37,114 bases of DNA from Desulfoluna sp. (lineage in GTDB: Bacteria > Desulfobacterota > Desulfobacteria > Desulfobacterales > Desulfolunaceae). The stretch is from assembly GCF_030145185.1 (NCBI RefSeq), contig NZ_JAQYWB010000059.1, forward strand, positions 1-37,114, in the 5' to 3' direction. The notes below the pieces were generated by a model. The model had not been told where the DNA came from and searched no databases. It saw only the letters and a program-made list of their open reading frames with translations. Positions 1,049 to 15,142 of the stretch are shown piece after piece (within the stretch, counting starts at the first letter, position 1; every line of letters begins with the position of its first letter). A program made the position numbers and the translations under genes.

Positions 1049-2668
1049 TCAACTCACTAATTCATGTTCTGCCTCGACAGTTCTTGGTTCTTTAGCACCC
1101 TTCATTACAGCTTCTAATGCCAATGACTCCCGATATTCTTGAGCCTCAGCAGCCATAGTCCAATGAGCTTCAAGCCCAATTTTTTCCACAACCGTCCTAA
1201 TCTGCTTTATACCCACCCGAAAAAACTCTTTCCGTGAATTCACCTTATTGACCTGCTCGTCCATAAATATTCGGTGTAATTCTTTTTCAAGAGTAGGCGC
1301 GTCTTCACTATGAATCATTGCGTGGACATCAAACGCAAAGGGAACACTTGCGTCGCCGAGTTCTTTAACACGGTCTAAAGGTTCAAGCCGCCGGGTAAGA
1401 CCAATTTTAAACACATCTTCGCCAAAGGACCCTACATTGGAAATAACGTATACATGACCTCGACGGGTTTGCTGGGCCATGGACAACGCCCTTTGATTCT
1501 TGGCTTCTGCGTCTTTAAGTTGAAGCTGGAGATCCGCAAGTTTTTGTTCAAACTCAAGTCGCTGCTCATCGTTGGCATTTTCGAGTTCTTTGCGAGCTTT
1601 CTCCATGGCAGCCTGAAGTATTTTCTCTTCTTTTTCTGCCTGTTTTATGGCCCTCTCATACTCTTTTCTGGCCTTCTCTTCTTCCCGCATGGACTCTTTA
1701 ATGAGCCTCTGTTCCTCGCGTTCCTGAAGCTTTAACTCATTGGTTTTAACGGCCCACTCCAACTCACCAACCCGGGCGTCACGATAATCTGGAAGAATTC
1801 GGGCATTTCTAAAGGCCTCACCATTATGGTTCACAAGGCTGAAGGCATCCAGAATCTCCTGGTTTAATTTTCCAAAATTATCATGCTTCACCTTAGATAA
1901 CGTGGTGTCTACTTTCCCATTAAATGCATCCAGAACAAAACGGACAGCTGTCCCTTTTCGGTGAGTCTCAACATAGTCACACGCAGCAGCAATACCATTT
2001 TTAATCATTCGTTTTGTCTTCTGGCGCGCATCTTTTAGCTCAACGCCAGCTTCTTTGTGACTGAACTCTTCAGCCAGTTCATCAAGCAGGCTTTTGTTGG
2101 GAATGATGTATTCATCACCATACCCTTTAATGATATTTTTCATGGCTTTGGCCGCTTGCTCATAATGCTTTGCGTTTTCAACAGCCTTCAATGCATCACC
2201 GGCAACCTCTTCTGCCTGGGTGCGGGCACTTTGAACTATACCTACAGCCTCTTTGATGGCTGTATCGTACTCTTCTTGAGATTTTTTGCTCTTCTGCTTG
2301 GCACTTTCGACGACTTCTTTTGCGTACTGATCGGCCCTCTGTTTAATCTTGTTGGACCTGTTTTCAATATCTTCAAGCAACCTCACCGACTCTTTTTCAG
2401 CTTCAGATTTAATTCTCTCAGCTTCGATCTTTGCATCTTCAATACCTTGGTATTGCCAGAGAGGATTTGTCTTTTCTTCAAGCGACAGATATTCCTCTTT
2501 CAGCTTCTCAATCTCAGCTTGACTCTCCTCTTTCACTTGGCCAATTTCGACTTCAAGTGCAGTACCTCTCTTTATGGCGTTCCTGCTTTTAAAAAATAAA
2601 AAGGCGGCAATAAACGGGCTAATCACGATCAGGAAAACGACTACACCAGCTATAAAGTCTGGATTCAT
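1049..2668 (-). CDS. Membrane-anchored DUF4041 / GIY-YIG (T5orf172, Mug113-type) protein
   Basis: This 539-residue protein begins with one hydrophobic membrane segment (about residues 5-27). A long charged coiled coil follows (about 35-190), then a DUF4041-like middle (about 190-310), a second coiled coil rich in Glu, Lys and Gln (about 310-400), and a C-terminal GIY-YIG-like domain of the T5orf172/Mug113 class. In that domain the strand GHVYVIS, the FKIGLTRR segment, an ELHRIF helix and the REFFRV end are all visible. Such proteins occur in prophages and defence islands; their biochemical role is poorly defined, and nuclease activity is inferred from the fold only. The gene is AT-rich relative to the purine genes and lies between two copies of repeat R1, which suggests acquisition. 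It has no obvious operon partner. Confidence 0.8.
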   Translation of the reverse strand: MNPDFIAGVVVFLIVISPFIAAFLFFKSRNAIKRGTALEVEIGQVKEESQAEIEKLKEEYLSLEEKTNPLWQYQGIEDAKIEAERIKSEAEKESVRLLEDIENRSNKIKQRADQYAKEVVESAKQKSKKSQEEYDTAIKEAVGIVQSARTQAEEVAGDALKAVENAKHYEQAAKAMKNIIKGYGDEYIIPNKSLLDELAEEFSHKEAGVELKDARQKTKRMIKNGIAAACDYVETHRKGTAVRFVLDAFNGKVDTTLSKVKHDNFGKLNQEILDAFSLVNHNGEAFRNARILPDYRDARVGELEWAVKTNELKLQEREEQRLIKESMREEEKARKEYERAIKQAEKEEKILQAAMEKARKELENANDEQRLEFEQKLADLQLQLKDAEAKNQRALSMAQQTRRGHVYVISNVGSFGEDVFKIGLTRRLEPLDRVKELGDASVPFAFDVHAMIHSEDAPTLEKELHRIFMDEQVNKVNSRKEFFRVGIKQIRTVVEKIGLEAHWTMAAEAQEYRESLALEAVMKGAKEPRTVEAEHELVS

Positions 2669-3155
2669 ATTGTCACCTTTGCAGGAAAATAATCATACTC
2701 AAATATGGCATCAACACGTGAATATTCAAAGAGAACCATACGCCTCAAAGTATGACTATTCAATCGAAAGCTGTACACACAGGTAAAAAATACTCGTCAG
2801 AACTCACGAAGATAGACAGTAAATCAAATCAAGAACTGCAGAGAAGCTATTTTGGAAATGGGATTGGGATAAGTTAAACCCGGCTGTTAAATGTGGCAGG
2901 GGTCGCGCCTTGATATTTTACACAGCCCCCTCTCATTGTTCGTCGATTTATCCATGAACGGCATGAGGCTAAAGCTGGGAAACGTCGAAAAGGCTCCGAA
3001 CGAGGAGGCCCCGACAAAAAAAGCCGTGACCACTTACCCCGATAAGGCATGAAGCAGAAAATCGGTTTCCCGAGCAAAAACTGCTTCCGATTTCTGCCGG
3101 TGGATCGATTGCAAAGCAAAGGGCTGTTAAACCACGAACCACACAAAAAACACGA
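2669..3155. other. Intergenic region, no convincing gene
   Basis: No gene with family similarity is visible. At 2897-2915 there is a degenerate single copy of the GGGGTCGCGTCTTGACATT motif that forms the ends of the element at 3447-3648. A 53-codon frame (2890-3051) starts inside that motif and is probably a relic or chance frame. The promoter of the minus-strand DUF4041 gene must lie just right of 2668, but no clear boxes are seen. Confidence 0.4.
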
Positions 3156-3259
3156 ACAGGGCAGCATTCAGCCGCCACAAAAAAATTTCCTTTTCAATCT
3201 CTGGCTTTTTTTCGTGTCTTTCGTGCTTTTCGTGGTCAAAAATTATGTGAGCTCTTTTC
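3156..3259 (+). repeat. Interspersed repeat R3, copy 1
   Basis: It matches 18443-18546 at roughly 85% by eye. Both begin ACAGGG, share GCATTCAG(C/T)(C/T)GCCACAAAAAA, and contain the segment TTCGTGTCTTTCGTGCTTTT, a motif seen in dispersed bacterial repeats. No coding role is apparent. Confidence 0.7.
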
Positions 3260-3370
3260 TGGATAAGCAGGGTCGCAAGCACACTATAGGTGTCACATGG
3301 CGGGCTGTTTTCGTTAATCTGGCTGCCTGAAGGAGCTTGGGCTGAATCGGTACGGCGAATTCAAACCAAC

Positions 3371-3442
3371 CCGCTTTCAAGGTGGCACACCTTGTCGCTG
3401 GAGGCCTTTTTTGTTGTGCTGAAGCAGTGACGGTCAATTCAC
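3371..3442 (+). repeat. REP-like palindrome, long form
   Basis: This copy reads CCGCTTTCAAGGTGGCACAC, then CTTGTCGCTGGAGGCC, a T-run, and a tail ending CGGTCAATTCAC. The copy at 8660-8730 has the same layout including the tail. The core AAGGTGGCNCACCTT plus GCCGCCGGAGGC recurs eight times in the window, mostly at gene 3' ends. Confidence 0.8.
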
Positions 3443-3446
3443 GAGA

Positions 3447-3648
3447 AGGGGTCGCGTCTTGACATTGGACATCCTGTTAAATCCTTTCAGTTTTATACAA
3501 CATCCGGTTTGGCACTATATGCTACTTCAGGCACCATTATGCAGGTTTTAAGAATCTTGGTCCTATAACTATATCGGCCTCAAGCCACCGATTAAAAAAG
3601 CGAGAATCAATGAGTAGGAGTTGTGTCAAATGTCAAGACGCGACCCCT
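3447..3648. mobile_element. 202-bp MITE-like element with 20-bp perfect terminal inverted repeats
   Basis: The left end (3447-3466) reads AGGGGTCGCGTCTTGACATT, and its exact reverse complement stands at 3629-3648; pairing continues imperfectly inward (GGAC against TGAC). The 160-bp interior is AT-rich with no coding potential. The right end overlaps the 3' end of lgt and supplies its last codons and stop. No target duplication was recognised. RAYT-related ends are a possibility but not proven. Confidence 0.8.
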
Positions 3649-4465
3649 CCCCTCGATTCTTCCCGAAATAAGGCCAGACGATCAGAACAAAGCCTGCGGC
3701 GATCATGGGAAGACTCAACATCTGCCCCATGGTGATGGGAAGCCCATCTGCCCAGAAGGCCTGGGTGGTCTTGAAGGATTCAAGGATCAGGCGGGTTGAA
3801 AAGACGGTGATGAGGAACAGACCGGAGAGACGCTTAGGAGACTTGCTTACACCGGCTCTGTCGCAGATAAACAGAAGAAGAAAGATGGCGGCATAGCTGA
3901 ACGATTCATAAAGCTGCACCGGATGCCTCGGTGTGGCATCGATGCGGGCAAAAATGACAGCCCAGGGCACATCGGCGGGATGGCCCACAATCTCGGAGTT
4001 GAAAAAATTGCCCATGCGAATCAAGGCGCCACCAAGAATGGCTGGAATAGCCAATCGATCCAGAAGTGCCCAGAACGCGAAGGCTTGCTTGCGGCAAAAG
4101 AAGTGCAGCGACACCAGAAATCCCACCAACCCGCCATGGCTGGCGAGACCGCCCCTCCACAGCATCGGTATCTCTAAAGGATTTGCCAGATAGTACCCGG
4201 GATCGTAGAAGAGGCAATGGGCCAGACGTGCGCCGATCAGTGTTCCCACAATCAGGTACAAAAGCATAGAGTCCACAGCGGACGCTATCTCATCCTCGCC
4301 GCCCCAAATGCCCCCATCATCTTGTTTCAATCGCCACAGCATATACCCCTGCCCCAGAAGAAAGGCAGCGGCAAAAAAAAGACCATACCAACGAATCTCC
4401 AAAGGCCCCAGAGAGACCATCACCGGACTTGTATTCCAAATCAAAGCATTCATCATGGCCCGCAT
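3626..4465 (-). CDS. lgt: Prolipoprotein diacylglyceryl transferase
   Basis: Lgt is an inner-membrane enzyme that transfers diacylglycerol from phosphatidylglycerol to the lipobox Cys of prolipoproteins. The 279-residue frame has the family layout: an N-terminal GPLEIRWYGLFFA segment, about seven membrane segments, the signature RGGLASHGGLVGF around residue 105, and the GRMGN-like IRMGNFFNSE block with Arg and Asn conserved. Three nearby ATGs (4465, 4456, 4453) could serve as start; homologues usually begin just before SPVMVSLGP, so the shorter ones are plausible. The final residues GSRLDI and the stop are encoded by the terminal repeat of the element at 3447-3648, so the native C-terminus has been replaced. 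The catalytic core is untouched and the gene should work. One client may be the lipoprotein at 5143. Confidence 0.95.
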   Translation of the reverse strand: MRAMMNALIWNTSPVMVSLGPLEIRWYGLFFAAAFLLGQGYMLWRLKQDDGGIWGGEDEIASAVDSMLLYLIVGTLIGARLAHCLFYDPGYYLANPLEIPMLWRGGLASHGGLVGFLVSLHFFCRKQAFAFWALLDRLAIPAILGGALIRMGNFFNSEIVGHPADVPWAVIFARIDATPRHPVQLYESFSYAAIFLLLFICDRAGVSKSPKRLSGLFLITVFSTRLILESFKTTQAFWADGLPITMGQMLSLPMIAAGFVLIVWPYFGKNRGEGSRLDI

Positions 4466-4506
4466 TGTGGCCTGAATGTCAGACGGGTGTCAAATGACAA
4501 AGCCCT

Positions 4507-4700
4507 GTTTTATCCTTCATCATTTCAGCTGGAAGGGCTGTTCCTGCATCTGCCTGTTAGGGCATCGATTCACAATGCCACATTAAGTCCAGATCGAATC
4601 GGCGGGGTTACAACGCTTTTATTGGGTCAGGAATGACGCAAAAAGAAATATCATGTCATGAGATTCAACATCAGGCGCTTGCTGCCTGTCCCTTAGTTTT
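4507..4700 (+). repeat. 194-bp interspersed repeat R1, copy 2
   Basis: Nearly identical to 817-1010 and in the same orientation. It sits directly upstream of lgt (minus strand), so it may now carry or replace that gene's promoter. The reading frame seen in copy 1 is interrupted here by a stop codon, against a coding role. Confidence 0.85.
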
Positions 4701-4872
4701 TTCCTTAGTTTCTTAATTTTCTTTGAAGCCTAATTTAATGCATTGGTTGTAACCGGACAATCGTGGTTAAAGTTTTATTATAATTTGATTGTACGGGTAC
4801 AGTCTTTAGTGATACGAGCACTTAACATTCGTGATCAGGCACTGCAATAATGTATTGAATGGAACGTGCTAT

Positions 4873-5010
4873 CCCGAATATTTCATGAGGAGCCGATCTT
4901 ACCGAAGCAATAAGTTTTTATTTCGGTATGTTACTGTGAAAAATTTAGATATTTGTAAAATACAAAATGTGATTCACGTTTTCTGCTCGATTTTCTCACC
5001 CTTCGGGCTA
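4873..5010 (+). repeat. MITE family M1, partial copy A
   Basis: The left end CCCGAATATTTCATGAG matches the terminal repeat of the complete copy at 19478-19730. Further in it shares AATACAAAATGT and CACCCTTCGGGC with that copy. The right half is lost. It lies about 130 bp upstream of the caspase lipoprotein gene. Confidence 0.65.
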
Positions 5011-5142
5011 TGCGAATAATGATTCTGATGGCGTATTCAAAAAAGGAAAAAAACAGTTTCAACCTTATGCGGGCAAGAAAGTCGTCCAGGCTTGAATATT
5101 ATATTTAGTGAATCAGTTTTTTAAGGGGGGAGGGGGAAATGT

Positions 5143-8100
5143 ATGGCGTATGTAAGGTCAATTGCTGTGGCTCTATTATTTTTCACACTGACGGGATGTG
5201 GCTTGCCAACTGTGCCTGTGACCGAGATTGTGCCAGTGTCTATGATCGAGACTGTGCCTGTGTCTGTGATCGAGACTGTGCCTGTGTCCGAGATTGTGCC
5301 CGTGCAGGATCATTATCTTCTGGCTGAGGAAATTAAAATTACATCTGCTTTGGATGATGAGATCACCCTTCTGCATAAAAAGATGCCCACGGAGATGATC
5401 ATTCAGCAAATGCACGGTGGTACGATTACAGGCATGGAATTTTCACCGGACGGAACTCTCCTCGCAACATGCTCCGCGGACAGCCTGATAAAAATTTGGG
5501 ATGCAAAAAACGGAAAGCTTCTGCATAACATAAAAGATAAAATCGAAAATAGTATTTTTAAGAAAAAAATGAACGCCGTCGCTTTTTCACCGGACGGTAA
5601 ATATATAGTCTCCGGTGGTACAGATGGATTAGTAAAAATATGGGACGTAAAAAGTGGGGCCATTCTTAAATCCTTTTCTCTGACACAGGAGGAGGGTAAT
5701 GTGTTGAGTGTAGATTATTCTCCTGACGGAAAACGAATTATCGCGGCGGGGGCACGTGATCGTTACAAGGAGGGTAGAGCAAAAATATGGGATATTTCAA
5801 GTGGCAAAATGGTGCTTGCCCTTCAAGGTCATTCCAGTAGAATCAGAAGCATTCAATACTCTCCCAATGGAAAACTCATCCTTTCAGGCTCTTTAGATAA
5901 CATTAAACTCTGGGATGCTCAAACAGGGAAACTCTTAAGTACTATTAAGGCCCCTTTCATATTAGAATGTGCTGCATTTTCCAGGGACGGGCAATGGGTA
6001 GCCGGTGGTTTCGGGGAGGGTATCGTCAGTGTCTGGAGTCTAAAAACAGGTAAAAAAATATTCACAGAAACACTGCAAAATCAAATATATAAAGATATTT
6101 CTAACATTAAGTTCTCCCCTGACGGACATCACCTTTTTTTTAGTACAAAAGAACATATGTCTAAAGTAAATTTGATCAACGGGCAGATTGAATCTTTTGA
6201 TAAAGAGTATTGTGATAAATTTGATATTTCTCCCGACGGGGAGCAGATTGCAAACGCAAATATACATACAGGCATAAGGCTCTGGGATAACGATAAAAAA
6301 AAGGTGCTCTTAACGTTCAGCCAAAGCTCAAATTCGGTTGAAAGCATAGCGGTTTCACCGAACGGACAAGCATTATTGTCAGGTGGCGGTGATGAACTGC
6401 TTAACCTTTGGGACATTAAAAACGGAAAGCTCACCCGTGCAATTAAGCAGAGGAGCTGTGAATCCCTGGAAAGTGTTGTTTTTTCGCCTGATGGTAAAAA
6501 AATGATCGGTGCCGGAAATGACTTTGATAACAAAACAGATGTCCGGGATGTGTCCACAGGAGACATTGTCTTCAGCCTTATAGATAAGGCTGATTCTGGC
6601 CTTAATAAGTACAATAGTATTAAATACTCTCCTGATGGAAGATACATCCTGTCAGGCTCTTATTCCGGTCCTTGGGATGGAACTGTAAAATTATGGGATG
6701 CAGCCACGGGAACACCGATACACCGTTTTACGGGGTCGGCTGTGTGGTCTGTCGCTTTTTCTCCCGACAGCAGGATGATGGCCGCGGGATTTGGTGATAA
6801 CACCATAAAAATATGGAGTGTCAAAAGCGGCAAGATTATTCTATCCAAAAAGCTTGACCATAGTGTGGGTCAGGTGGCGTTTTCTCCAAATGGGACCCAC
6901 CTTTTGTTTTATACATTGGGTCTAAATAGAATAGATATCAGCAATGGGGAAATATCAGCCTTTACACATTGCACACCACGAGTTTTTGATATTTCTACTG
7001 ACGGCAAATATATAATTGGCAGCTCCTTTTTTGGCGATATTCAATTATGGAATGTTAATACGGACACGCTCATCCGAACGTTTAAAGGACACACCGGCCA
7101 TGTGAACAGCATAAAATTTTCTCAAAATGACAAACTTGCCATATCAGGCGGTAAAGACGGCACCATCCGTTACTGGAATGTGGAAACAGGGAAACAGATC
7201 TGCCTCTCAATGACCGATAAAAATGGTGAGTGGGTCGTTATAACCCCCTCTGGAGAGTTTGATAAATCACAGGGCTTTGAAGGCCTCCACTGGGTCAGGG
7301 GCCTTGACGTTCTTGAACTCGATCAATTTTTTGAATCTTTTTATAAGCCAGGTTTAATGGCCCGGGTCATTGATACGGGGGGAGCAGCAGAAAACATTGC
7401 CGGAAAAACAATCGATGCGATGATGGCCTCCCCGCCGCCTGTCATTACGATTATCTCTCCAAAGGCGCTTAAAGCCGATCAGAAAAATGATGCGAGCGTT
7501 GTGGTCAGTCCAAAAGGAACCATAGAGATTGTGCTGGAAGTTAAGGATAATGGCGGAGGAATCAAAGACATTACTCTTTTTCATAACGGAAAGCCTGTTA
7601 AACGAGAACAAAGGGGCATCAAAAAGAAAAGCAGCTCTTCGAATACATCACAGTTCGTCTCATTCCATATGGCCCTTCTTAATGGAAAAAACACCTTTAC
7701 CGCTGTTGCCAAAAGCAAAACCGGCCTTGAATCAAAGCCGGTTAATGCAGCCATTTCATATAAAGACCCGAATCTTGAAAAACCGGATGCCTATTTTGTC
7801 ATTGTGGGCATTAACAACTATAAAAACACAAAATACAACCTGAATTACGGCAGGGCAGATGCTGAAGCGGTCAGCGCACTTTTCAGAGAGAAATCCACGA
7901 AGCTCTTTAAAACCATGCATGTAACAGAACTGTTCGACAATAAGGCGACAAAAACAAATATTCTACAGGCACTTGATAACGTTGTTAAATCTGCAAAACC
8001 GAAAGACGTTTTTGTGCTCTACTATGCAGGCCATGGTGTCATGGTGGAAAATAAAAAAGGGACACCGCATTTTTATATTGCACCCCATGAAGTCACCGCC

Positions 8101-8556
8101 CTGTACCGTGAACAACATATCTGGGCAAACGGGATATCGGCTGAGCAGCTTACCGGATATTCAAAACAGATCAGAGCCAGAAAGCAGTTGCTGATCATGG
8201 ATGCATGCCAGGCGGGCGGTTTTGAGCAGACCTTTGCCATGCGTGGTGCCATTGAAGAAAAAGCTCTGAAACAGCTTAGCCGGTCGAGCGGACTCTACCT
8301 TCTGGCAGCAACACAGTCCGAGCAGTTCGCAACGGAATTTGCGAGTTTAAAACATGGTGTCTTCACCTATGCTGTTTTAAAAGGCCTGCAGGGTGAAGCG
8401 GACGGCAGCCCCAAAGATGGAAAGACGACCGTGCGAGAGCTTTCCGCATTTATCGAAGATAAAATGCCGGGATTAACCGAAACCCATCGCGGCAATGCAC
8501 AATACCCCAGCATTTACGGGCGGGGGCAGGATTTCCCCATACTTCTTTCCCAATAG
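5143..8556 (+). CDS. Secreted lipoprotein with 14 WD40 repeats and C-terminal caspase-like (peptidase C14) domain
   Basis: A lipoprotein signal (hydrophobic residues 7-16, lipobox LTGC with Cys19) predicts membrane anchoring outside the cytoplasm. A short repetitive linker (residues 25-50, variations on VPVSxIETVPVS) follows. About 14 WD40 repeats run from residue 90 to 690, recognisable by FSPDG and xIWD/xLWD pairs; that number fits two seven-bladed propellers. After a GEWVVITPSGEFD linker (about 694) and an Ig-like stretch (about 760-870), the C14 domain starts near 880. The predicted catalytic dyad is intact: His964 in YYAGHGV and Cys1022 in MDACQAGG. The start is supported by a very G-rich ribosome-binding stretch at 5125-5136. 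The gene is AT-richer than the purine genes. Most bacterial WD40-caspase proteins are cytoplasmic or lack a lipobox. The substrate is unknown; protease or scaffold roles are both possible. Confidence 0.9.
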   Translation: MAYVRSIAVALLFFTLTGCGLPTVPVTEIVPVSMIETVPVSVIETVPVSEIVPVQDHYLLAEEIKITSALDDEITLLHKKMPTEMIIQQMHGGTITGMEFSPDGTLLATCSADSLIKIWDAKNGKLLHNIKDKIENSIFKKKMNAVAFSPDGKYIVSGGTDGLVKIWDVKSGAILKSFSLTQEEGNVLSVDYSPDGKRIIAAGARDRYKEGRAKIWDISSGKMVLALQGHSSRIRSIQYSPNGKLILSGSLDNIKLWDAQTGKLLSTIKAPFILECAAFSRDGQWVAGGFGEGIVSVWSLKTGKKIFTETLQNQIYKDISNIKFSPDGHHLFFSTKEHMSKVNLINGQIESFDKEYCDKFDISPDGEQIANANIHTGIRLWDNDKKKVLLTFSQSSNSVESIAVSPNGQALLSGGGDELLNLWDIKNGKLTRAIKQRSCESLESVVFSPDGKKMIGAGNDFDNKTDVRDVSTGDIVFSLIDKADSGLNKYNSIKYSPDGRYILSGSYSGPWDGTVKLWDAATGTPIHRFTGSAVWSVAFSPDSRMMAAGFGDNTIKIWSVKSGKIILSKKLDHSVGQVAFSPNGTHLLFYTLGLNRIDISNGEISAFTHCTPRVFDISTDGKYIIGSSFFGDIQLWNVNTDTLIRTFKGHTGHVNSIKFSQNDKLAISGGKDGTIRYWNVETGKQICLSMTDKNGEWVVITPSGEFDKSQGFEGLHWVRGLDVLELDQFFESFYKPGLMARVIDTGGAAENIAGKTIDAMMASPPPVITIISPKALKADQKNDASVVVSPKGTIEIVLEVKDNGGGIKDITLFHNGKPVKREQRGIKKKSSSSNTSQFVSFHMALLNGKNTFTAVAKSKTGLESKPVNAAISYKDPNLEKPDAYFVIVGINNYKNTKYNLNYGRADAEAVSALFREKSTKLFKTMHVTELFDNKATKTNILQALDNVVKSAKPKDVFVLYYAGHGVMVENKKGTPHFYIAPHEVTALYREQHIWANGISAEQLTGYSKQIRARKQLLIMDACQAGGFEQTFAMRGAIEEKALKQLSRSSGLYLLAATQSEQFATEFASLKHGVFTYAVLKGLQGEADGSPKDGKTTVRELSAFIEDKMPGLTETHRGNAQYPSIYGRGQDFPILLSQ

Positions 8557-8659
8557 CAGGCCTTCGCAGGCTTTGGCACGGGTCAATTGTCATACATAGG
8601 CTCGCCAGAATACCGCTGGGATTTGACCCGAGGAACGAGGGGTAAAGCCCAGCGGTAAC

Positions 8660-8730
8660 CTGCTTTCAAGGTGGCACACCTATCCGCCGGCGGCCTTTTT
8701 TGTTGTGCGGAACAGTTACGGTCAATTCAC
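8660..8730 (+). repeat. REP-like palindrome, long form
   Basis: It reads CTGCTTTCAAGGTGGCACAC, then CTATCCGCCGGCGGCC, a T-run, and ends CGGTCAATTCAC, as in the copy at 3371-3442. It lies between the convergent caspase lipoprotein and marR genes, where the stem and T-run could also end transcription. Confidence 0.75.
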
Positions 8731-8746
8731 CATAAAACCTCTACAT

Positions 8747-9172
8747 TCATTCCGATTTAAAGAGTAAATTAATTCCTGATAATACCTCTTTAAAAATCTC
8801 AATCTGACGTTCATAGAACTCTGAATCTATTTTCTTATTCACAGCATCAATCACAGTGCTGGCTTTGACCGTTTCGGTGATTCCTGATTCTGTGATAGTA
8901 ATAAAAAATTGCCTGCGGTCCTTTTCATTCATCTTTCTCTTCACAAAGCCGGATTTCTCGAGCCGGTCTACAGTTCTGGTGACTGCCGAGTTATCGGTCT
9001 CCAGTGCCCGACTCAACTCGCTCATTGTGCGGCTGTTGCGTTCCCTCAGAAGAAACAGAATTCCCAGCTGCCCCGGGGAGACCTTAAGCCCTGCTTTCGT
9101 GAGCTGCTGCTTAATATAGACCTTCAGTGAGTTTTCGGCCTTTGAAAGCATAAAGAACAAACGGTTATCCAT
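8747..9172 (-). CDS. MarR-family transcriptional regulator
   Basis: This 141-residue winged-helix protein has the MarR pattern: a first dimerisation helix, then the recognition region MSELSRALETDNSAVTRTVD (about residues 53-72), and the wing KSGFVKRKMNEKDRRQFFIT with the conserved DRR turn. GAGGAAAAG stands just before the ATG as ribosome-binding site. It lies downstream of the MBL hydrolase on the same strand, separated by the M1 element at 9213-9367, and probably shares the hydrolase promoter at 10207-10235, where a palindrome typical of MarR operators is found. It is likely an autoregulated repressor of that unit; the inducing ligand cannot be told from the sequence. Confidence 0.9.
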   Translation of the reverse strand: MDNRLFFMLSKAENSLKVYIKQQLTKAGLKVSPGQLGILFLLRERNSRTMSELSRALETDNSAVTRTVDRLEKSGFVKRKMNEKDRRQFFITITESGITETVKASTVIDAVNKKIDSEFYERQIEIFKEVLSGINLLFKSE

Positions 9173-9212
9173 TCTCTTTTCCTCTTCAGTATTAAGATGT
9201 TTTGCAGGCCAG

Positions 9213-9367
9213 CTATCCCGAATATTTCATAAAAATGGTCACGTCAAAGAAATACGACACGATTAAAGCTGTTTACTGTGAAACATATAGAAATTTCTAA
9301 AACACAAAATGCAATTCACGGTTTTCTACCCGATTTTCTCACTCGACTCGTGAAATATCCGGGCTAT
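9213..9367. mobile_element. MITE family M1, short copy B with internal deletion
   Basis: The left end CTATCCCGAATATTTCAT and the right end GTGAAATATCCGGGCTATA form imperfect inverted repeats and match the ends of the 253-bp copy at 19478-19730. The internal AAAACACAAAATGC and TTTTCTACCCGATTTTC stretches also match, but the central part is missing. Its right edge contains the stop codon of the adjacent hydrolase. Confidence 0.75.
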
Positions 9368-10146
9368 ATCGTCTTCACCATATTCAGGGAGGACCACTCT
9401 CCCCCTGACAATACGGTCCATAAATTTTTCTTGGGGAAGAGACGTCTGTCAATTTCCCGGGATTCGAGTCCCTCTTTCTCCAGGGCTCTGACCTTTTCCT
9501 GAAGCGTCAGAAAATAGTCCAGCTTTGATCTGAGTTTTTCCTTACCCTTTTTCTGTATGCCGGAATGGCCGCAGAATATCGTGTCAAAATCGAGTTCAAG
9601 AATTTTCTGAATCGATACGATGGCATCACCGATGTTCTCATCCTTGAATGCCACGGCCTGTCTGCGGCTCACGTACAAGTCTCCGGAAAAGAGCCATCCC
9701 CTGCTCTTCTCATGGAACACGACGTGATCTTGATGATGGCCAGGGGCATTGATCACATCGAATCTGTACTTATCCGTTTCAATAAACTCAGGCATGGGAT
9801 CTGCCGTGAAGGCATCCCGGTTTCTCCAGACGAGCCAACGGTATAATGGAATACTGCTCTTCATAGAAGCTTCAGCTATCGAATGACGGTGAAGGTATAC
9901 GGGAACCTGAAGGCTCTCCTTTATCCATGCGGCGGCCCCTGTATGATCCTCGTGTACGTGGGTCAGGGCAACGCTGTTTATTTTGTTCCCTTTGATCAGA
10001 GACCTCGTCTTTTTTAAAATGGCCCCGGATCCGGCATCTATCAACAAGCCATCTACGATGTAGAGACAAATATCCAGTTTGAATGGGTAGATTCCCGACT
10101 TCGTCTTTGCTGATATGAAATCATTCTCTATTTTTTTAATTATCAT
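9364..10146 (-). CDS. MBL-fold metallo-hydrolase
   Basis: The 260-residue protein shows the metallo-beta-lactamase metal ligands in order: His63, His65, Asp67 and His68 in THVHEDHTG, a further His in APGHHQDH, the bridging Asp in FSGDLY, and the last His in FCGHSG. This full set supports a two-metal hydrolase, but the substrate is not evident (glyoxalase II-like, lactonase-like or other). I chose the ATG at 10146, which has AGGAA six bases upstream; a GTG five codons earlier is possible. The gene leads an apparent MBL-marR unit with a strong promoter at 10207-10235. Its TAG stop falls in the terminal repeat of an M1 element, so the original C-terminus was probably changed by that insertion. 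Confidence 0.88.
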   Translation of the reverse strand: MIIKKIENDFISAKTKSGIYPFKLDICLYIVDGLLIDAGSGAILKKTRSLIKGNKINSVALTHVHEDHTGAAAWIKESLQVPVYLHRHSIAEASMKSSIPLYRWLVWRNRDAFTADPMPEFIETDKYRFDVINAPGHHQDHVVFHEKSRGWLFSGDLYVSRRQAVAFKDENIGDAIVSIQKILELDFDTIFCGHSGIQKKGKEKLRSKLDYFLTLQEKVRALEKEGLESREIDRRLFPKKNLWTVLSGGEWSSLNMVKTI

Positions 10147-10206
10147 CGACAGTTCCTGCACAGGTAGAATGGGTTATGGCCATATTGGATCTGTTAATTT
10201 GTCACG

Positions 10207-10235
10207 ACAATATTTGATTAGTCAAATAATGTCAA
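10207..10235 (-). promoter_or_regulatory. Promoter of the MBL-marR unit with overlapping MarR-type operator
   Basis: On the minus strand the -35 box is TTGACA (10230-10235) and the -10 box TATTGT (10207-10212), exactly 17 bases apart. The palindrome TATTTGATTAGTCAAATA (10211-10228), with perfect 7-base arms and a 4-base centre, fills the spacer. Size, symmetry and position suit a MarR repressor. The palindrome and boxes are seen directly; binding by the MarR at 8747-9172 is inferred. Confidence 0.7.
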
Positions 10236-10372
10236 GAAGCCAGAGGACAGCCAAAATAGGCTCGGCCCCTTTTTGTTCCCTTTCCACGCAATCCCGATAC
10301 TGACAAATAAACGCTGTTGAACACAGAAAAAAAAGAAAGCCGATACCCGCTGGACAGCCCACTGTTTTTTAT

Positions 10373-10413
10373 TGACTTATTCAGTGAACGACCGTTAACT
10401 TAACATACGTTCA
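10373..10413 (+). promoter_or_regulatory. Probable tetR promoter and TetR operator
   Basis: TTGACT (10373-10378) and TAACTT (10396-10401) lie 17 bases apart, a good -35 with a weak -10. Between and over them is the near-palindrome TGAACGACCGTTAA (10385-10398), and a further CGTTCA half-site at 10408-10413 is the inverse of TGAACG. The CAGTGAACG segment recurs with one change as CAGTAAACG in front of the GRE gene, pointing to one regulator for both. Confidence 0.45.
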
Positions 10414-10513
10414 TTAATCAACTGTTCATCATTTTTTAAGTGAGTTCAACGACAGGTCTGTACGCGGTATAGCAAAAATTAAGCCCCCTGCCCCTTTTTC
10501 ACAGGAGAGTCAA

Positions 10514-11161
10514 ATGTCGAAAGCTGTACGCAGTGTTGAAGAAATCGAAGCAATTAAAAATCGAATTCTTGATACGGCCACGATCATTATTTACGAGCAG
10601 GGGTTTGACAACCTGAGCATGAGAAAAATTGCCTCGCGGCTGGGCATGACCGCTGCCAATATCTACAACTATTATTCAAACCAGGATGAGCTGTATCTCA
10701 GCATCCAAATCAAGGGCTTTACGCTTTACAATGACTATATCATGGACGTCTACAATGCATATGACGACCCGGTTGAGAGGCTCGGGAAACTGCTTGTCGC
10801 CTACCTTGATTTCGGAATCGGGAACCCCGGCTATTATGAAATTATGCTGGACAGCAACACGCCAAGGTACAGCGACTACATGGGAACAAAACTGGAAGCC
10901 CTTGCCTATGAGGCCAAGCAATCGGCTCTGACGCTGCTGGGACGGGCCACATCAGCAATCGAAGAGGTTGCCGTTGCCACCGGGCGCTTCCCGCAAGAGG
11001 ACGCCTCCTACCTCTCCCTTCAGCTTTGGAGCCATGTCCACGGCACAGTGATCCTGCAAAACAGACGGATATGGCAGGAGGTGGTTGACGATCCAGAGGC
11101 CATCATCAAGCGGATGGCCAGCGACCTCCTGGAGCACTTTTTGGGGCCAGAAAAACCATAA
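10514..11161 (+). CDS. TetR-family transcriptional regulator
   Basis: The N-terminal 60 residues hold a canonical TetR helix-turn-helix (LSMRKIASRLGMTAANIYNY, then YSNQDELY). The C-terminal ligand domain resembles the TetR_C_33/WHG type, with LQLWSHVHGTVIL. An AGGAGAG ribosome-binding site precedes the ATG. It stands 91 bp upstream of the glycyl radical enzyme gene in the same direction and is its probable local regulator, since palindromes sharing AGTRAACG are found in front of both genes. The effector is unknown; by analogy with other catabolic TetR proteins it may be the GRE substrate or a derived acyl-CoA (inference). Confidence 0.92.
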   Translation: MSKAVRSVEEIEAIKNRILDTATIIIYEQGFDNLSMRKIASRLGMTAANIYNYYSNQDELYLSIQIKGFTLYNDYIMDVYNAYDDPVERLGKLLVAYLDFGIGNPGYYEIMLDSNTPRYSDYMGTKLEALAYEAKQSALTLLGRATSAIEEVAVATGRFPQEDASYLSLQLWSHVHGTVILQNRRIWQEVVDDPEAIIKRMASDLLEHFLGPEKP

Positions 11162-11166
11162 ATAGC

Positions 11167-11181
11167 CAGTAAACGTTACTG
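11167..11181 (+). promoter_or_regulatory. Candidate TetR operator before the glycyl radical enzyme gene
   Basis: CAGTAAACGTTACTG is a 15-base palindrome with perfect 6-base arms around ACG. Its left half matches CAGTGAACG at 10382-10390 in front of tetR except for one base. It begins six bases after the tetR stop codon, about 70 bp before the GRE start. Confidence 0.45.
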
Positions 11182-11252
11182 TTCAGCTTTGCTTTTTTGT
11201 AAATTTTATTTTTGCGCAGCCCTTACAATGAATTCAGGAAAAGGCATTTAAA

Positions 11253-14225
11253 ATGAGCAAAAGAAACTCCATGAACACTCTGGCGAACCTTGCTTTGCGG
11301 ATGATGGCAGCTCAATTTAACCTGAGGCCTTCGCTCCGGGCGTATCTTAAAAGTACGGACGGATGGACCAACTTCACGATCGGCCTTACGACAGAAACCG
11401 GAACGGTGGAGCAGGCCATCGTATTTCATGATGGGCGCGTCAAGGTTATCAAAACAATCCCGGACAACGCCGATGCCGTGATGCGTTTTATAAATGACGA
11501 GGTTTTAAAAGAGATCGTCAAGATCACCCCGAACGAGATGCTCAACCTCGCTTTAAAAAACAAAATCATCCTGGAAGGGAACATGGCCTACCTTCAGGCC
11601 TTCAACTTCTTCATTTCGCTTATCATGGGTAAAAAACACCAGAAAATGCTCGATAAGATCAGACGGGAGGAGATGAAGACCAGGAAAGAAGAGTACGGAA
11701 CAGAGAATACCGGCCTGTCCCAGGAGATCAAAAGCAGGTCGGAATACAGAATGAAAGCCACAGCTGAAAATGATCTCGGTGTCAGATACCTCGATGACCC
11801 GTACCTTTCTGAGTACAGCATTGATGATTTTCCGCGCATAAAAAGACGGCTCGATGAACTCTTAAGCACCAAACCTGAAATCTCCTCGGAGAGACCGCGA
11901 CTTCTTACACGCTGGTACAGAAAAAACGGCTTTGAGGTCGACAAAGAGGGGACCCCCTGGTTCCCGGAGCTGCGTCAGGCACATGCCTATAAATATGTCA
12001 TGGAAAGCAAAAAACCGGTCATCCGCCCGGAAAGTCCGATCGCAGGGACCTGCGCTCCGGAGGATGTTGCGGTCATGATCTACCCGGACACAACAGGTAC
12101 CATGATATGGGGAGAACTCGGATCCATCGACAAACGATTCCTTAATCCCTGCACGATTTCAAAAAAGACAGTCGAGGAGCTCCACGATATATACCCCTTC
12201 TGGGCAAAGAGAATTACCAGAGAGTGGATCCGCTCTAAATTCGATTATCCCCTCTGCCAGAAGATTGACGAACGGGCCGTTGCCTCATTCAACTTTAAGA
12301 CCGTATCCATGTCCCATGTCATTCCCGATCTCTTCACGATCATCAATGAGGGGACCCACAGCATCATTGAGCGAATACGCCGACAGATAGACACGCTCCA
12401 AGAGAGCGAAACCGATCAGTTGAACACCCTGCAGTCCATGATCATCTGCCTGGAGGGGCTCAACATCTACGCAGAAAATCTCGCCGGTGAAGCGCTCAGG
12501 CTTGCAGAAATTGAAGAGGACCCGAACCGTATAGAGGAGCTAAAGAAACTCCATCACATATGCATCCAGGTGCCCGCGCACCCTGCCCGGGATATCGATG
12601 AGGCAATCAACGCCTTCTGGATCTTCTGGGTTGGCCTTGTGATGGAAAACAACAATGTATCGCTTTCGCCGGGTCGGCTTGATCAGGTCTTTCAGCCGTT
12701 CTTTGAAAAAGGGATGGAAAAGTTGTCCTCAAGCGCGGAAAAGCAGGTGTTTACAGAACATGTCATTGAACTTTTCTGTTTCTACTTTATAAGAAATGCC
12801 GAACACCAGAACCTGGTGCCCGATGTGGCGAACTATCTTTTCAGCGGCAGCCATGCCGAGACGGCCATTACTGTAGGCGGGGTAACGCCTGACGGGAAGG
12901 ATGCCGTCAATGATATGACTTACATCCTTCTGAAAGTCACAGAAATGCTCAGGATGAGAGACCCCAACATGAACGCGAGATTCAAGGTCGGAGTCAACAG
13001 CGACACCTATCTCAAGCGACTCTGCGAGGTCAATTTCATCACCGTTGCGACCCCCTCCATGCACGGGGATGATGCGGTGATGGAGGCACTCAGCCAAAGC
13101 GCCGATAAGATCGAAGACATACGCGACTGGGCGGCCACCGGATGTGTTGAGATAACCATCCCAGGAAAGCAGGGAAACCATGCGGGGGCAACCTCCATCA
13201 ACATGGTGGCAGGTCTCGAGATGGCGCTGAACAATGGCTATCATCCCTTAATGAACTGGCATCTCGGACCGGAAACAGGGAAGATTGAAAACGATGATTT
13301 CACGTCCTTTGATGCGTTTTATGACGCCTTTGCCGCACAAACGAAATTCATCATAGATCAGACCATCATGTTCAACAATATGGCGGCAGAAGCATACGCC
13401 TACTTAAGGCCCACGCCGTATCTCAGCGCCGCTATCCAGGGAACCATTGAAAAAGGGAAGGATGTGACCCATGGCGGCGCAATCTACAATACGTCCGGCA
13501 CATTCAACATAGGTCTTTCTGATGTGGTCGATTCCATGATGGTGATAAAAAAACTCGTGTTTGAGGAAAAGAAAATCACCATGAAAGACCTGAAAAGAGC
13601 GGTTGATTCCAATTTTGAAAACGATGCCGCGCTTCACACAATGGTGATGAACAAAGTCCCCCGTTTCGGTTCAGGGAGCGATGAAGCGGTTGACATGGCC
13701 AACCGCGTGGCACACCTGATTCACACCTGCTACAAATCCACAAAAAATTTCCGCGGCGGCGACTATACCGTGGGATTCTGGTCTGTGGCCCAGCACAGCG
13801 CCTACGGCGCTCTCTCCGGGGCGATCCCATCCGGCAGGCTGGCCTATAGCCCCTTCACCCCGGGTCTTACGCCGCATCCATCCGCCTCCATGAACTTTCT
13901 TGACAACATTCGGGACGTCGCAAAGATGAACCCGCATTATATGGATAACAACATCGCCTTTAACGTAAGACTCGTCCCCGCCGAGCAGGATTCACACGAA
14001 AAAACGGTGGATACGATGTTTTCGTACGTGAAGACATATTTTGAACAGGGCGGGATGCAGATGCAATTCAATATCGTCAAATCGGCCGTCTTGAAAGATG
14101 CGATGGTGAATCCGGAACATTATAAAAACCTGCTTGTCCGGATCTCGGGATACAACGCCTACTTCATCCACCTGTCGAGGGATATGCAGCTTGAAATCAT
14201 AAACAGGGCGGAATTCGGAATATGA
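11253..14225 (+). CDS. Glycyl radical enzyme with N-terminal SCP2-like domain; substrate unknown
   Basis: The 990-residue protein has the pyruvate formate-lyase fold. The radical site is Gly966 in LLVRISGYNAYF, 24 residues from the end, and the active-site thiyl residue is Cys631 in ATGCVEITIPG. Glu633 two residues later is the arrangement of the eliminating GREs (glycerol and propanediol dehydratase, choline lyase, hydroxyproline dehydratase), although those normally have GCVEP and here Pro is Ile. The first 125 residues are not part of usual GREs: segments such as AIVFHDGRVKVI, NADAVMRFI and KNKIILEGNMAYL look like an SCP2 sterol-carrier fold, a hydrophobic ligand pocket. AGGAAAAGG precedes the ATG. 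The stop overlaps the activase start (ATGA). No microcompartment shell or aldehyde dehydrogenase genes are adjacent. Class is sure; the substrate is unknown. Confidence 0.93.
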   Translation: MSKRNSMNTLANLALRMMAAQFNLRPSLRAYLKSTDGWTNFTIGLTTETGTVEQAIVFHDGRVKVIKTIPDNADAVMRFINDEVLKEIVKITPNEMLNLALKNKIILEGNMAYLQAFNFFISLIMGKKHQKMLDKIRREEMKTRKEEYGTENTGLSQEIKSRSEYRMKATAENDLGVRYLDDPYLSEYSIDDFPRIKRRLDELLSTKPEISSERPRLLTRWYRKNGFEVDKEGTPWFPELRQAHAYKYVMESKKPVIRPESPIAGTCAPEDVAVMIYPDTTGTMIWGELGSIDKRFLNPCTISKKTVEELHDIYPFWAKRITREWIRSKFDYPLCQKIDERAVASFNFKTVSMSHVIPDLFTIINEGTHSIIERIRRQIDTLQESETDQLNTLQSMIICLEGLNIYAENLAGEALRLAEIEEDPNRIEELKKLHHICIQVPAHPARDIDEAINAFWIFWVGLVMENNNVSLSPGRLDQVFQPFFEKGMEKLSSSAEKQVFTEHVIELFCFYFIRNAEHQNLVPDVANYLFSGSHAETAITVGGVTPDGKDAVNDMTYILLKVTEMLRMRDPNMNARFKVGVNSDTYLKRLCEVNFITVATPSMHGDDAVMEALSQSADKIEDIRDWAATGCVEITIPGKQGNHAGATSINMVAGLEMALNNGYHPLMNWHLGPETGKIENDDFTSFDAFYDAFAAQTKFIIDQTIMFNNMAAEAYAYLRPTPYLSAAIQGTIEKGKDVTHGGAIYNTSGTFNIGLSDVVDSMMVIKKLVFEEKKITMKDLKRAVDSNFENDAALHTMVMNKVPRFGSGSDEAVDMANRVAHLIHTCYKSTKNFRGGDYTVGFWSVAQHSAYGALSGAIPSGRLAYSPFTPGLTPHPSASMNFLDNIRDVAKMNPHYMDNNIAFNVRLVPAEQDSHEKTVDTMFSYVKTYFEQGGMQMQFNIVKSAVLKDAMVNPEHYKNLLVRISGYNAYFIHLSRDMQLEIINRAEFGI

Positions 14226-15142
14226 AAAGCAGTCCACTGATACTGGAGATAAAGGGCAACGCCCTGGATGACGGACCGGGGATACGCACGGTTGTGTTTT
14301 TCAAGGGATGCCCCTTGAATTGCGTCTGGTGCCACAATCCGGAAAGCAAAAAGAGAGGCGTTGAACTATCTTTTGATGCAAACGGGTGCATCGAATGCAA
14401 CCACTGCATAAACGCATGTGCCGCGGGTTCATTGTCTCGAGACAACCCCTTCTTTATTGACCGCGACAATTGCACCCTCTGTTTTGAATGCGTCGAAGCG
14501 TGCCCTTCAGGCTCGATGAGCAGGGTGGGCGCCCCCATGACAATTGATCAGATAGTCGAAAAGGTAACAAAGGACAAAGCGTTTTTCGACACATCAGGCG
14601 GCGGCGTGACACTCTCCGGTGGAGAACCCACCCTTGATATTCCCTTTACCTCAAAACTGATGAAAGAACTGAAGAAAAAAGGCGTACATATTCTCATAGA
14701 GACATGCGGCTTTTTCAATTTCGACTCATTCAAAGACCTTATCTACCCCCATGTGGACATGATTTACTGTGATATAAAACTCATGGACCCTGAAGAACAT
14801 AAAACGTTCTGCGGCGTCTCCAATGATCAGATTCTCAGGAACTTCATCATGCTCAATAAAGAATACAGCAAAGGGGGTGTCGAAATCATTCCACGCACCC
14901 CGTTGGTCCCTGACATTACAGATACAGAGTATAACATCTCAGCTATTGCGAACTTTTATCGTGAGAATGGAGTGAAAAAGGCCGCACTGCTGAGTTACAA
15001 CCCCCTCTGGCATGAAAAAAACAAGAAGGTGGGCGTTAAGAACCCATACAGCGAGATAAAAAAGATGTCTCACTGGATATCGAGGGAGAAGGAGGATGCC
15101 TGCAGGACAATTTTCAAGAATGCCGGTATAGAGGTCGTGTAG
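14222..15142 (+). CDS. Glycyl radical enzyme activase (radical SAM)
   Basis: This 306-residue protein should install the glycyl radical on Gly966 of the enzyme encoded just upstream, using a [4Fe-4S] cluster and S-adenosylmethionine. The radical-SAM cysteines are Cys30, Cys34 and Cys37 (GCPLNCVWCHNP). Two ferredoxin-like clusters follow between residues 55 and 105 (CIECNHCINAC and CTLCFECVEACP), as in the activases of the eliminating GREs. TSGGGVTLSGGEP is the usual SAM-binding GGE region. Its ATG overlaps the GRE stop by four bases, indicating translational coupling. The TAG stop lies at the edge of an M1 relic (15140-15212), so the last few residues may derive from that insertion. Confidence 0.95.
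   Translation: MKSSPLILEIKGNALDDGPGIRTVVFFKGCPLNCVWCHNPESKKRGVELSFDANGCIECNHCINACAAGSLSRDNPFFIDRDNCTLCFECVEACPSGSMSRVGAPMTIDQIVEKVTKDKAFFDTSGGGVTLSGGEPTLDIPFTSKLMKELKKKGVHILIETCGFFNFDSFKDLIYPHVDMIYCDIKLMDPEEHKTFCGVSNDQILRNFIMLNKEYSKGGVEIIPRTPLVPDITDTEYNISAIANFYRENGVKKAALLSYNPLWHEKNKKVGVKNPYSEIKKMSHWISREKEDACRTIFKNAGIEVV

Follow-up and report, generated by a model that had tools for sequence, protein, structure and literature searches.

A predicted lipid-anchored protein of Desulfoluna joins two WD40 propellers to a caspase domain and belongs to a widespread, apparently exported family

Introduction

Fusions of WD40 repeats to caspase-like domains, and caspase homologues that carry N-terminal signals and appear to be exported, were noted in 2012 in a paper whose relevant passages suggest surface or fratricidal roles for the exported proteins (PMC3501461); a survey of 671 metacaspases in the same source places WD40 repeats in 73 of them, and assigns 98 to the membrane and 30 to the extracellular space. 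A secreted caspase protein of Bradyrhizobium was reported in the same year (excerpted text of PMC3355149), extracts of PMC6426788 present Tat-like pseudo-orthocaspases as exported caspase homologues, and a passage of a later survey speculates about extracellular protein degradation by bacterial metacaspases (PMC4933709). Secreted caspase-like domains have also been proposed as toxin or processing peptidases, in part of a paper that also treats Sec-exported polymorphic toxins (PMC3482391), and gingipains are described, in portions of PMC5266723, as surface proteases with a caspase-like fold. Here we compare with these proteins a WD40-caspase gene of Desulfoluna sp., located at 5143-8556 on the forward strand of a 37,114-nucleotide stretch (the window; assembly GCF_030145185.1, contig NZ_JAQYWB010000059.1, positions 1 to 37,114). 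An earlier sequence-only reading of this gene considered that a caspase with a large sensor platform outside the cytoplasm is hard to fit to known systems, which was too strong, since the excerpts of PMC3501461, PMC3355149 and PMC3482391, and of PMC5266723 on the gingipains, precede it. In the open-licence papers, as far as their accessible portions extend, we found no description of lipidated WD40-caspases or of module exchange in them.

Results

The protein encoded at 5143-8556 is predicted to consist of a signal peptide, a flexible tether, two propellers, a connector, an immunoglobulin (Ig)-like domain and a C-terminal caspase domain, as follows (all on the forward strand).

5143-8556, forward: WD40-caspase lipoprotein gene, 1137 amino acids, ATG start (open reading frame, Pfam WD40 and PF00656)
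About 5123-5137, forward: purine-rich ribosome-binding stretch, read in the sequence just 5' of the ATG
5143-5196, forward: predicted signal peptide, residues 1-18, with a basic N-region and a hydrophobic core
5188-5199, forward: lipobox LTGC with predicted lipidation at Cys19 (pattern match; the paralogue on contig C125 has the same motif)
5200-5388, forward: tether, residues 20-82, with V-P-V repeats (tandem repeat; AlphaFold2)
5389-6297, forward: beta-propeller 1, blades 1-7, residues 83-385 (28 model strands; seven-bladed propellers align over about 89-385)
6298-7188, forward: beta-propeller 2, blades 8-14, residues 386-682 (28 model strands; motifs; 2ymu alignment over 83-679)
7189-7434, forward: connector, residues 683-764, containing a conserved W-x-V-x-T-P-x-G motif (alignments A1, A3 and A4)
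7435-7776, forward: Ig/fibronectin-like domain, approximately residues 765-878 (3pdd matched by profile, E 3.4e-5; strands in both models)
7777-8553, forward: caspase (peptidase C14) domain, residues 879-1137 (PF00656; fold match Z 22.8)
7858-7860, forward: Asp906, aligned with a metacaspase specificity-pocket Asp (63/63, 24/24 and 89/90 rows)
8032-8034, forward: catalytic His964 (kept in 63/63, 24/24 and 89/90 rows)
8200-8208, forward: Asp1020-Ala-Cys1022, pocket Asp and catalytic Cys (both in 63/63, 24/24 and 90/90 rows)
8242-8247, forward: Arg1034-Gly1035, candidate activation-cleavage site, 12 residues past the catalytic Cys

According to the structure prediction, the sensor part is made of two complete seven-bladed WD40 propellers. 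Pfam WD40 matches with an E value of 8e-79, nine stretches passing individually, and an expression with variants fitted by eye finds 14 WD40 core motifs in residues 100-659. A full-length AlphaFold2 model built on 63 sequences (predicted local distance difference test, pLDDT, 84.3; predicted template modelling score, pTM, 0.79) has 56 strands in residues 84-679, i.e., 14 sets of four, split 28 + 28 at about residue 385. This matches the 14 motifs and agrees with the sequence-only count of 14 blades, enough for two propellers. The 14-bladed structure 2ymu aligns with the model over residues 83-679 with Z 40.3 and a root mean square deviation (rmsd) of 10.6 A across both propellers jointly, which leaves the mutual placement of the two propellers without support in detail, and single seven-bladed propellers superpose on propeller 1, about residues 89-385, at an rmsd of 1.6-1.9 A (the single-propeller rows listed being those for propeller 1). 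The Ig-like domain between propellers and caspase was absent from the earlier reading.

The caspase domain scores 75.5 bits against PF00656, above the cut-off of 21.4, which places it in peptidase C14 as an orthocaspase; the score of 88.5 bits against NCBIfam NF047832 (EACC1-associated caspase) falls below that model's cut-off of 140. A second model, covering residues 683-1137 and built on 90 sequences (pLDDT 87.0), superposes on metacaspase-4 and on MALT1 at Z 22.8, with an rmsd of 2.6 and 2.9 over 217 and 212 residues, respectively, and its best Foldseek match is GSU0716 of Geobacter. Three alignments that overlap in rows, A1 (24 rows), A3 (63 rows) and A4 (90 rows), showed that the His964/Cys1022 dyad, described as intact in the sequence-only reading, is kept in nearly all of their rows. 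Asp906 and Asp1020 align with the two metacaspase pocket Asp positions, as in an acidic pocket. Passages of PMC6426788 hold that these Asp make the metacaspase specificity pocket acidic, and this pocket is given there and in parts of PMC5756287 as the reason why characterised C14 enzymes other than caspases cleave after Arg or Lys. The Desulfoluna enzyme would, by its aligned residues, share this Arg/Lys specificity. Arg1034 is kept in 61/63 rows of A3, 88/90 of A4 and 19/24 of A1, and it lies in a loop (residues 1032-1042) that has low confidence in the first model, and averages pLDDT 57-67, never below 50, around Arg1034 in the second. By analogy with the activation loop of caspase-3, this may be a caspase-like activation-cleavage loop.

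The start of the gene appears well placed, as its open frame reaches just 6 codons further upstream, and a similar purine-rich stretch precedes the ATG of the C125 paralogue. The context of Cys19 (...VALLFFTLTGC) fits a Prosite-type lipobox pattern, in keeping with the lipobox proposed from the sequence, and the repetitive linker proposed beside it is equally evident: the tether DNA is a 24-base tandem repeat at about 5210-5288/5305 (3.3 copies, 87% match), encoding V-P-V repeats, and residues 14-74 have a pLDDT below 50 in the AlphaFold2 model, as an unstructured tether would. The C125 paralogue lacks the expansion of this repeat, which suggests that slippage may change tether length. In the connector, W697 is conserved in 81/90 rows and G704 in 89/90.

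Our survey of homologues indicates that export is not peculiar to the Desulfoluna protein. The first set holds 63 open reading frames (ORFs) from the class of the host, four of them from the Desulfoluna genome itself, drawn from 60 stretches taken mostly best first out of 100 matches; the second holds 83 ORFs at named loci, which are the top 80 among the 239 relatives retrieved with the five-row alignment A2. The export count excludes three loci present in duplicate and 13 ORFs whose 5' end is open. A scan of contigs with the single protein (residues 683-1137) gave 26 pattern matches, none of them encoding relatives. Sec-type N-termini are present in 138 of the 146 homologue ORFs scanned, with fragments or unsure starts among the remaining 8. 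Under a stricter signal rule, 127/157 family ORFs pass, compared with 63/213 ORFs on the same strand at distances above 1.5 kb (p 3e-23), and same-strand neighbours within 150 nucleotides are likewise enriched in export signals (68/120 vs 63/213 distant ORFs, p 1.5e-6). Since the loci are mutually related, these p-values serve as guides only. By their record titles, the named loci are mostly from Bacteroidota, with others from Nitrospirae, Deltaproteobacteria/Desulfobacterota, Spirochaetaceae, Elusimicrobia, Planctomycetota and more. The WD40-caspase protein is thus very probably exported and located outside the cytoplasm, which upholds the earlier placing of caspase and sensor platform there, and export is, as read from these N-termini, an old and general trait of the family.

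The lipobox has a narrower distribution. By pattern it occurs in 28 of the 138 classified homologues (21/56 in the class set and 7/82 in the named set); some of the 110 without it may have membrane anchors and not cleaved signals. On a tree of 121 rows, the label of signal peptidase I or II type (SpI/SpII) has to change 16 times, and starred branches force no fewer than 15 of these changes, compared with a shuffled mean of 18.9; the labels are pattern-based, and borderline N-termini (e.g., one L183 gene, and L070) could alter this count. All six PF00656 proteins found in the Desulfoluna genome fit the lipobox pattern, the start being unsure for the C103 gene, which has no clear start before its lipobox. 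The genome contains LolA, and the only copy of the prolipoprotein diacylglyceryl transferase gene found in it (one PF01790 match) lies beside the WD40-caspase gene.

3626-4465, reverse: lgt, prolipoprotein diacylglyceryl transferase, divergent neighbour (TIGR00544, 176.1 bits, cut-off 118.9)

The predicted lipidation of Cys19 would fit this setting, and the lipobox would tether the protein to a membrane beyond the cytoplasm, on either its periplasmic or its outer side. The term outward-facing in the sequence-only reading, if taken to mean surface exposure, goes further than the lipobox supports.

Comparison of paralogues demonstrated that sensor and protease modules have separate histories in some pairs. 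Between the gene at 5143 and its C125 paralogue, the caspases are identical at 237/259 residues (92%) and the propellers at 46-51%, and silent changes follow the same division, with 26/109 four-fold degenerate sites differing in the caspase vs 72/125 in the propellers (Fisher p < 1e-6). DNA identity climbs sharply near 7700 and falls after the stop codon, so that the alike tract corresponds approximately to the caspase domain; similarity also exceeds that of the propellers in the signal (16/19 residues kept) and in the upstream region. The L083 pair is reversed at silent sites (propellers 14/233 vs caspase 37/75, p < 1e-6), and propellers are also the more alike in two L047 pairs (90/245 vs 53/77, p 1e-6; 65/106 vs 30/36, p 0.015) and in the L175 pair (99/208 vs 29/42, p 0.012), which leaves 5143/C125 as the one tested case where silent sites make the caspase more alike. 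The two members at L083 stand in tandem (4792-10967, forward), with 517/558 identical residues in the propellers and 161/253 in the caspases. Nine within-genome pairs were compared (L047 x3, L083, L124, L174, L175, L183 and 5143/C125), those of L106, L162 (3), L167 and L171 being left out together with an L177 pair that repeats an L047 pair; five of the nine reach p < 0.05, three of which survive correction for nine tests, and none of ten between-genome pairs, hand-picked for similarity, does so. In L124, L174 and L183 no difference between the modules is seen at silent sites (p 0.28, 1.0 and 0.35, respectively), and these pairs are saturated and uninformative either way; protein identity in L174 and L183 is 26-27% for propellers and 80-86% for caspases. 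The separate histories are most simply explained by gene conversion, or by an exchange of modules between the copies. At third codon positions, the GC content (GC3) of the propellers is 39.8% and that of the caspase 49.2%, compared with 52-64% in other window genes nearby (a PD-Lambda-1-type gene at 41.9% excepted) and 67-78% in those at 21-35 kb, and the low value of the WD40-caspase gene suggests acquisition.

Proposed function and alternatives

Taking these observations together, we lean, by a little, towards a membrane-anchored, Arg/Lys-specific orthocaspase lipoprotein whose propellers direct it to proteins of the envelope or outside the cell, where we infer the membrane face and the class of substrate. 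In its favour are the intact dyad and conserved pocket positions, the export signals across the family, the lipobox shared with the C125 paralogue, the envelope-type genes that recur next to part of the family (listed below) and the omptin that precedes the C125 paralogue. The Sec signal would carry the protein across the inner membrane, Lgt would lipidate Cys19, and signal peptidase II would cut before it. The E. coli sorting rule sets an Asp after the lipidated Cys against outer-membrane sorting, and since residue 20 is Gly and not Asp, the rule would predict the outer membrane. There the flexible tether of about 60 residues would hold the double seven-bladed propeller, which would bind its partner or substrate either at the surface or in the periplasm. 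The caspase would be switched on by the bound ligand or by a cut in the loop at Arg1034, and the activated enzyme would cleave after Arg or Lys.

Several findings weigh against this reading. The gene stands alone between two genes on the reverse strand, lgt upstream and a MarR regulator downstream. A looser signal rule discriminates poorly, with 149/157 family ORFs and 324/466 controls passing, and 125/234 controls passed in an earlier form of it. A lipobox is missing from the nearest homologues in other genomes (e.g., L045, L046 and the third L047 gene), which is one half of the condition that the sequence-only reading named as refuting it; the other half, a start further downstream, does not apply, as these homologues begin with ordinary Sec-type signals. 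Together with the many label changes on the tree, this makes the lipid anchor a recurrent variant within an exported family, with the lipobox, by these patterns, a local option that has been repeatedly gained or lost. No lspA match was found in the Desulfoluna assembly (152 contigs, 96.9% complete). The gene is present in 28 of the 30 genomes searched, the exceptions being the Desulfoluna genome itself and one relative. With 28 of 29 relatives carrying lspA, among them all five congeners, a gap in the assembly is more probable than true absence.

A further point of this kind is the failure of the omptin protease as a general partner, a candidate suggested by the following run on contig C125 (locus L009).

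12745-13845, reverse: omptin
9119-12652, reverse: caspase lipoprotein, 1177 amino acids
5872-8910, reverse: WD40-caspase lipoprotein, the C125 paralogue

These are three predicted envelope proteases, encoded consecutively on one strand in the order listed and separated by 92 and about 210 bases. The omptin, the only one found in the genome, matches PF01278 at 4.7e-43 and retains in alignment the catalytic positions of OmpT. An omptin match occurs in 21 of 389 genomes, four of which (G000, G039, G126 and G153) also have the caspase family, about 3.6 being expected from its presence in 66 of the 389 overall; co-occurrence is thus about as expected, adjacency is seen in the Desulfoluna genome only, and we rejected the omptin as a general partner. 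A fuller version of the preferred reading, in which an extracytoplasmic caspase-sensor repertoire has its propeller and caspase modules exchanged or homogenised between copies, yielding novel pairings of sensor and protease outside the cell, and in which an Arg/Lys-directed surface cascade with the omptin runs in the Desulfoluna genome, one protease activating another by a cut in the Arg1034 loop, is in our view distinctly improbable.

The first alternative is a protease of envelope stress or signalling, with propellers that sense misfolded or cell-wall-derived ligands and a caspase that cleaves a periplasmic regulator or lipoprotein in a role like that of DegS or Prc. Periplasmic over external work is suggested by the CsgG-like, GNA1162-like, OmpA and DUF4384 neighbours of homologues, each recurrent cluster being named from one Pfam-scanned representative. 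CsgG-like genes adjoin the caspase gene at five loci, GNA1162-like genes are the second gene downstream at four, DUF4384 genes are adjacent at four, and OmpA genes occur at seven, three of these more than 1.4 kb distant; alpha/beta-hydrolase genes occur at four loci, two at a distance, and proteins of papain type with DUF4384 at six, five within 80 bases. The predominance of N-termini without a lipobox (110/138, with possible membrane anchors among them) points in the same direction. Set against this, neighbour families differ by lineage, the largest clusters, family members aside, cover 9 of the 142 loci examined, and no known stress regulator was recognised beside the 5143 gene; we regard this explanation as unlikely, while deserving attention. 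On the same counts no universal operon partner emerges from these loci. At L163, a papain-family (C1) type gene with DUF4384 lies upstream of the caspase gene (2532-4022, forward), with similar genes at L135, L143, L158, L168 and L182, and at L047 three tandem WD40-caspase genes (2484-13059, forward) have a DUF4384-type cluster gene just upstream.

The protein could also be a contact-dependent effector resembling a polymorphic toxin, its caspase forming the C-terminal tip of a lipid-anchored stalk with swappable modules aimed at neighbouring cells. The passages of PMC3482391 in which C-terminal caspase domains on exported repeat proteins are proposed as toxins are in its favour, as are the surface or fratricidal roles suggested for exported homologues in those of PMC3501461 and the separate module histories of some paralogues. 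Sensor-alike and protease-alike pairs both occur, unlike the pattern of a constant stalk with a variable tip; no candidate immunity gene was found among ORFs of at least 100 amino acids, the next gene downstream being that of the MarR regulator on the reverse strand, and no delivery domain is among the Pfam matches listed (25 of 70 families). These points leave the effector doubtful.

Defence against phages or intruders at the envelope, by an outward sensor with a death or processing protease, is less probable still. A PD-Lambda-1-type gene, a single-gene anti-phage candidate with DUF4041 and T5orf172, lies 2.5 kb away (1049-2668, reverse; PADLOC E 1.6e-114; GC3 41.9%), a PADLOC scan that covered two neighbours of the WD40-caspase gene matched the general caspase model (6.3e-16) and a HEAT-ARM model, and the low GC3 that suggests acquisition would suit a defence gene. 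An extracytoplasmic caspase cannot readily kill its own cell, however, the recurrent neighbours identified for homologues are not defence genes, and phage records gave no match with residues 683-1137. On plasmids, 37 records match, all below 60% identity, and a DNA search gave one match of 99 bases.

That the protein is cytoplasmic, with a mispredicted signal, is hardly credible: the double WD40 propellers known so far are mostly cytosolic and lspA was not found in the assembly, but Sec-type N-termini recur throughout the homologues, and the C125 pair keeps its signal although the propellers have diverged.

Two further neighbours in the window can be recorded. A gene of the metallo-beta-lactamase fold lies within about 1 kb downstream of both paralogues (9364-10161, reverse; L009 3562-5397, reverse, by eye), and Lactamase B is listed in an excerpt of PMC3501461 among the enzymes in caspase operons. 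A glycyl radical enzyme gene (11253-14225, forward; 990 amino acids, with about 190 residues ahead of the PFL-like domain) is overlapped by an activase gene (14222-15142, forward), and its product reached no curated NCBIfam cut-off.

Discussion

Bacterial caspases are usually discussed as intracellular proteases of death or defence, whereas the present family, which is a widespread and little-studied one of exported bacterial caspases, appears to be exported in several phyla with its active site kept and in part with a predicted lipid anchor. If active, these proteins would make up a class of proteases of the envelope or surface, each resembling an initiator caspase with a recognition platform attached, and their substrates would reveal roles of bacterial caspases apart from self-killing. 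Paralogues in which sensor and protease differ in history offer a way to test what the propellers recognise.

With the orthocaspases that carry WD40 repeats, as described in parts of PMC3501461 and PMC5756287, the Desulfoluna protein shares the p20 fold, the His/Cys dyad, the pocket Asp and the WD40 fusion itself; it differs in having its caspase at the C-terminal end, preceded by two propellers and an Ig-like domain, and in its predicted export and lipobox, and the excerpts of these two papers describe no lipidation of WD40 orthocaspases. Export or a membrane location is shared with the published exported homologues, and the corresponding portions of PMC3501461, PMC3355149 and PMC6426788 describe no WD40-Ig-caspase lipoprotein family, SpI/SpII switching or module exchange. 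Polymorphic toxins with a caspase, in the sections of PMC3482391 that treat them, have Sec export, repeats and a C-terminal caspase in common with it; no immunity gene was seen beside the 5143 gene, and no pre-toxin domain is among the Pfam matches listed (25 of 70).

MALT1 paracaspase shares with the protein the caspase fold (Z 22.8) and the joining of caspase and Ig domains in one protein, but is an intracellular animal protein with 17-18% identity in the alignments listed. Platforms of the Apaf-1 type also tie two propellers to a caspase (3sfz superposes on residues 88-692 with Z 37.8 and an rmsd of 13.9), whereas here propellers and caspase lie in one exported chain and only the fold is in common.

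The gingipains (C25) leave the cell by the type IX route. Their Ig-like domain follows the catalytic domain, while in the Desulfoluna protein it precedes the caspase, which ends the chain, so that the C25 order is not found here. By the portions of PMC5266723 that describe them, they are nevertheless surface proteases that combine a caspase-like fold with an Ig-like domain, have basic-residue specificity and contain recombining adhesin domains, and on this working likeness we regard the gingipains as the closest working analogue of the predicted Desulfoluna lipoprotein.

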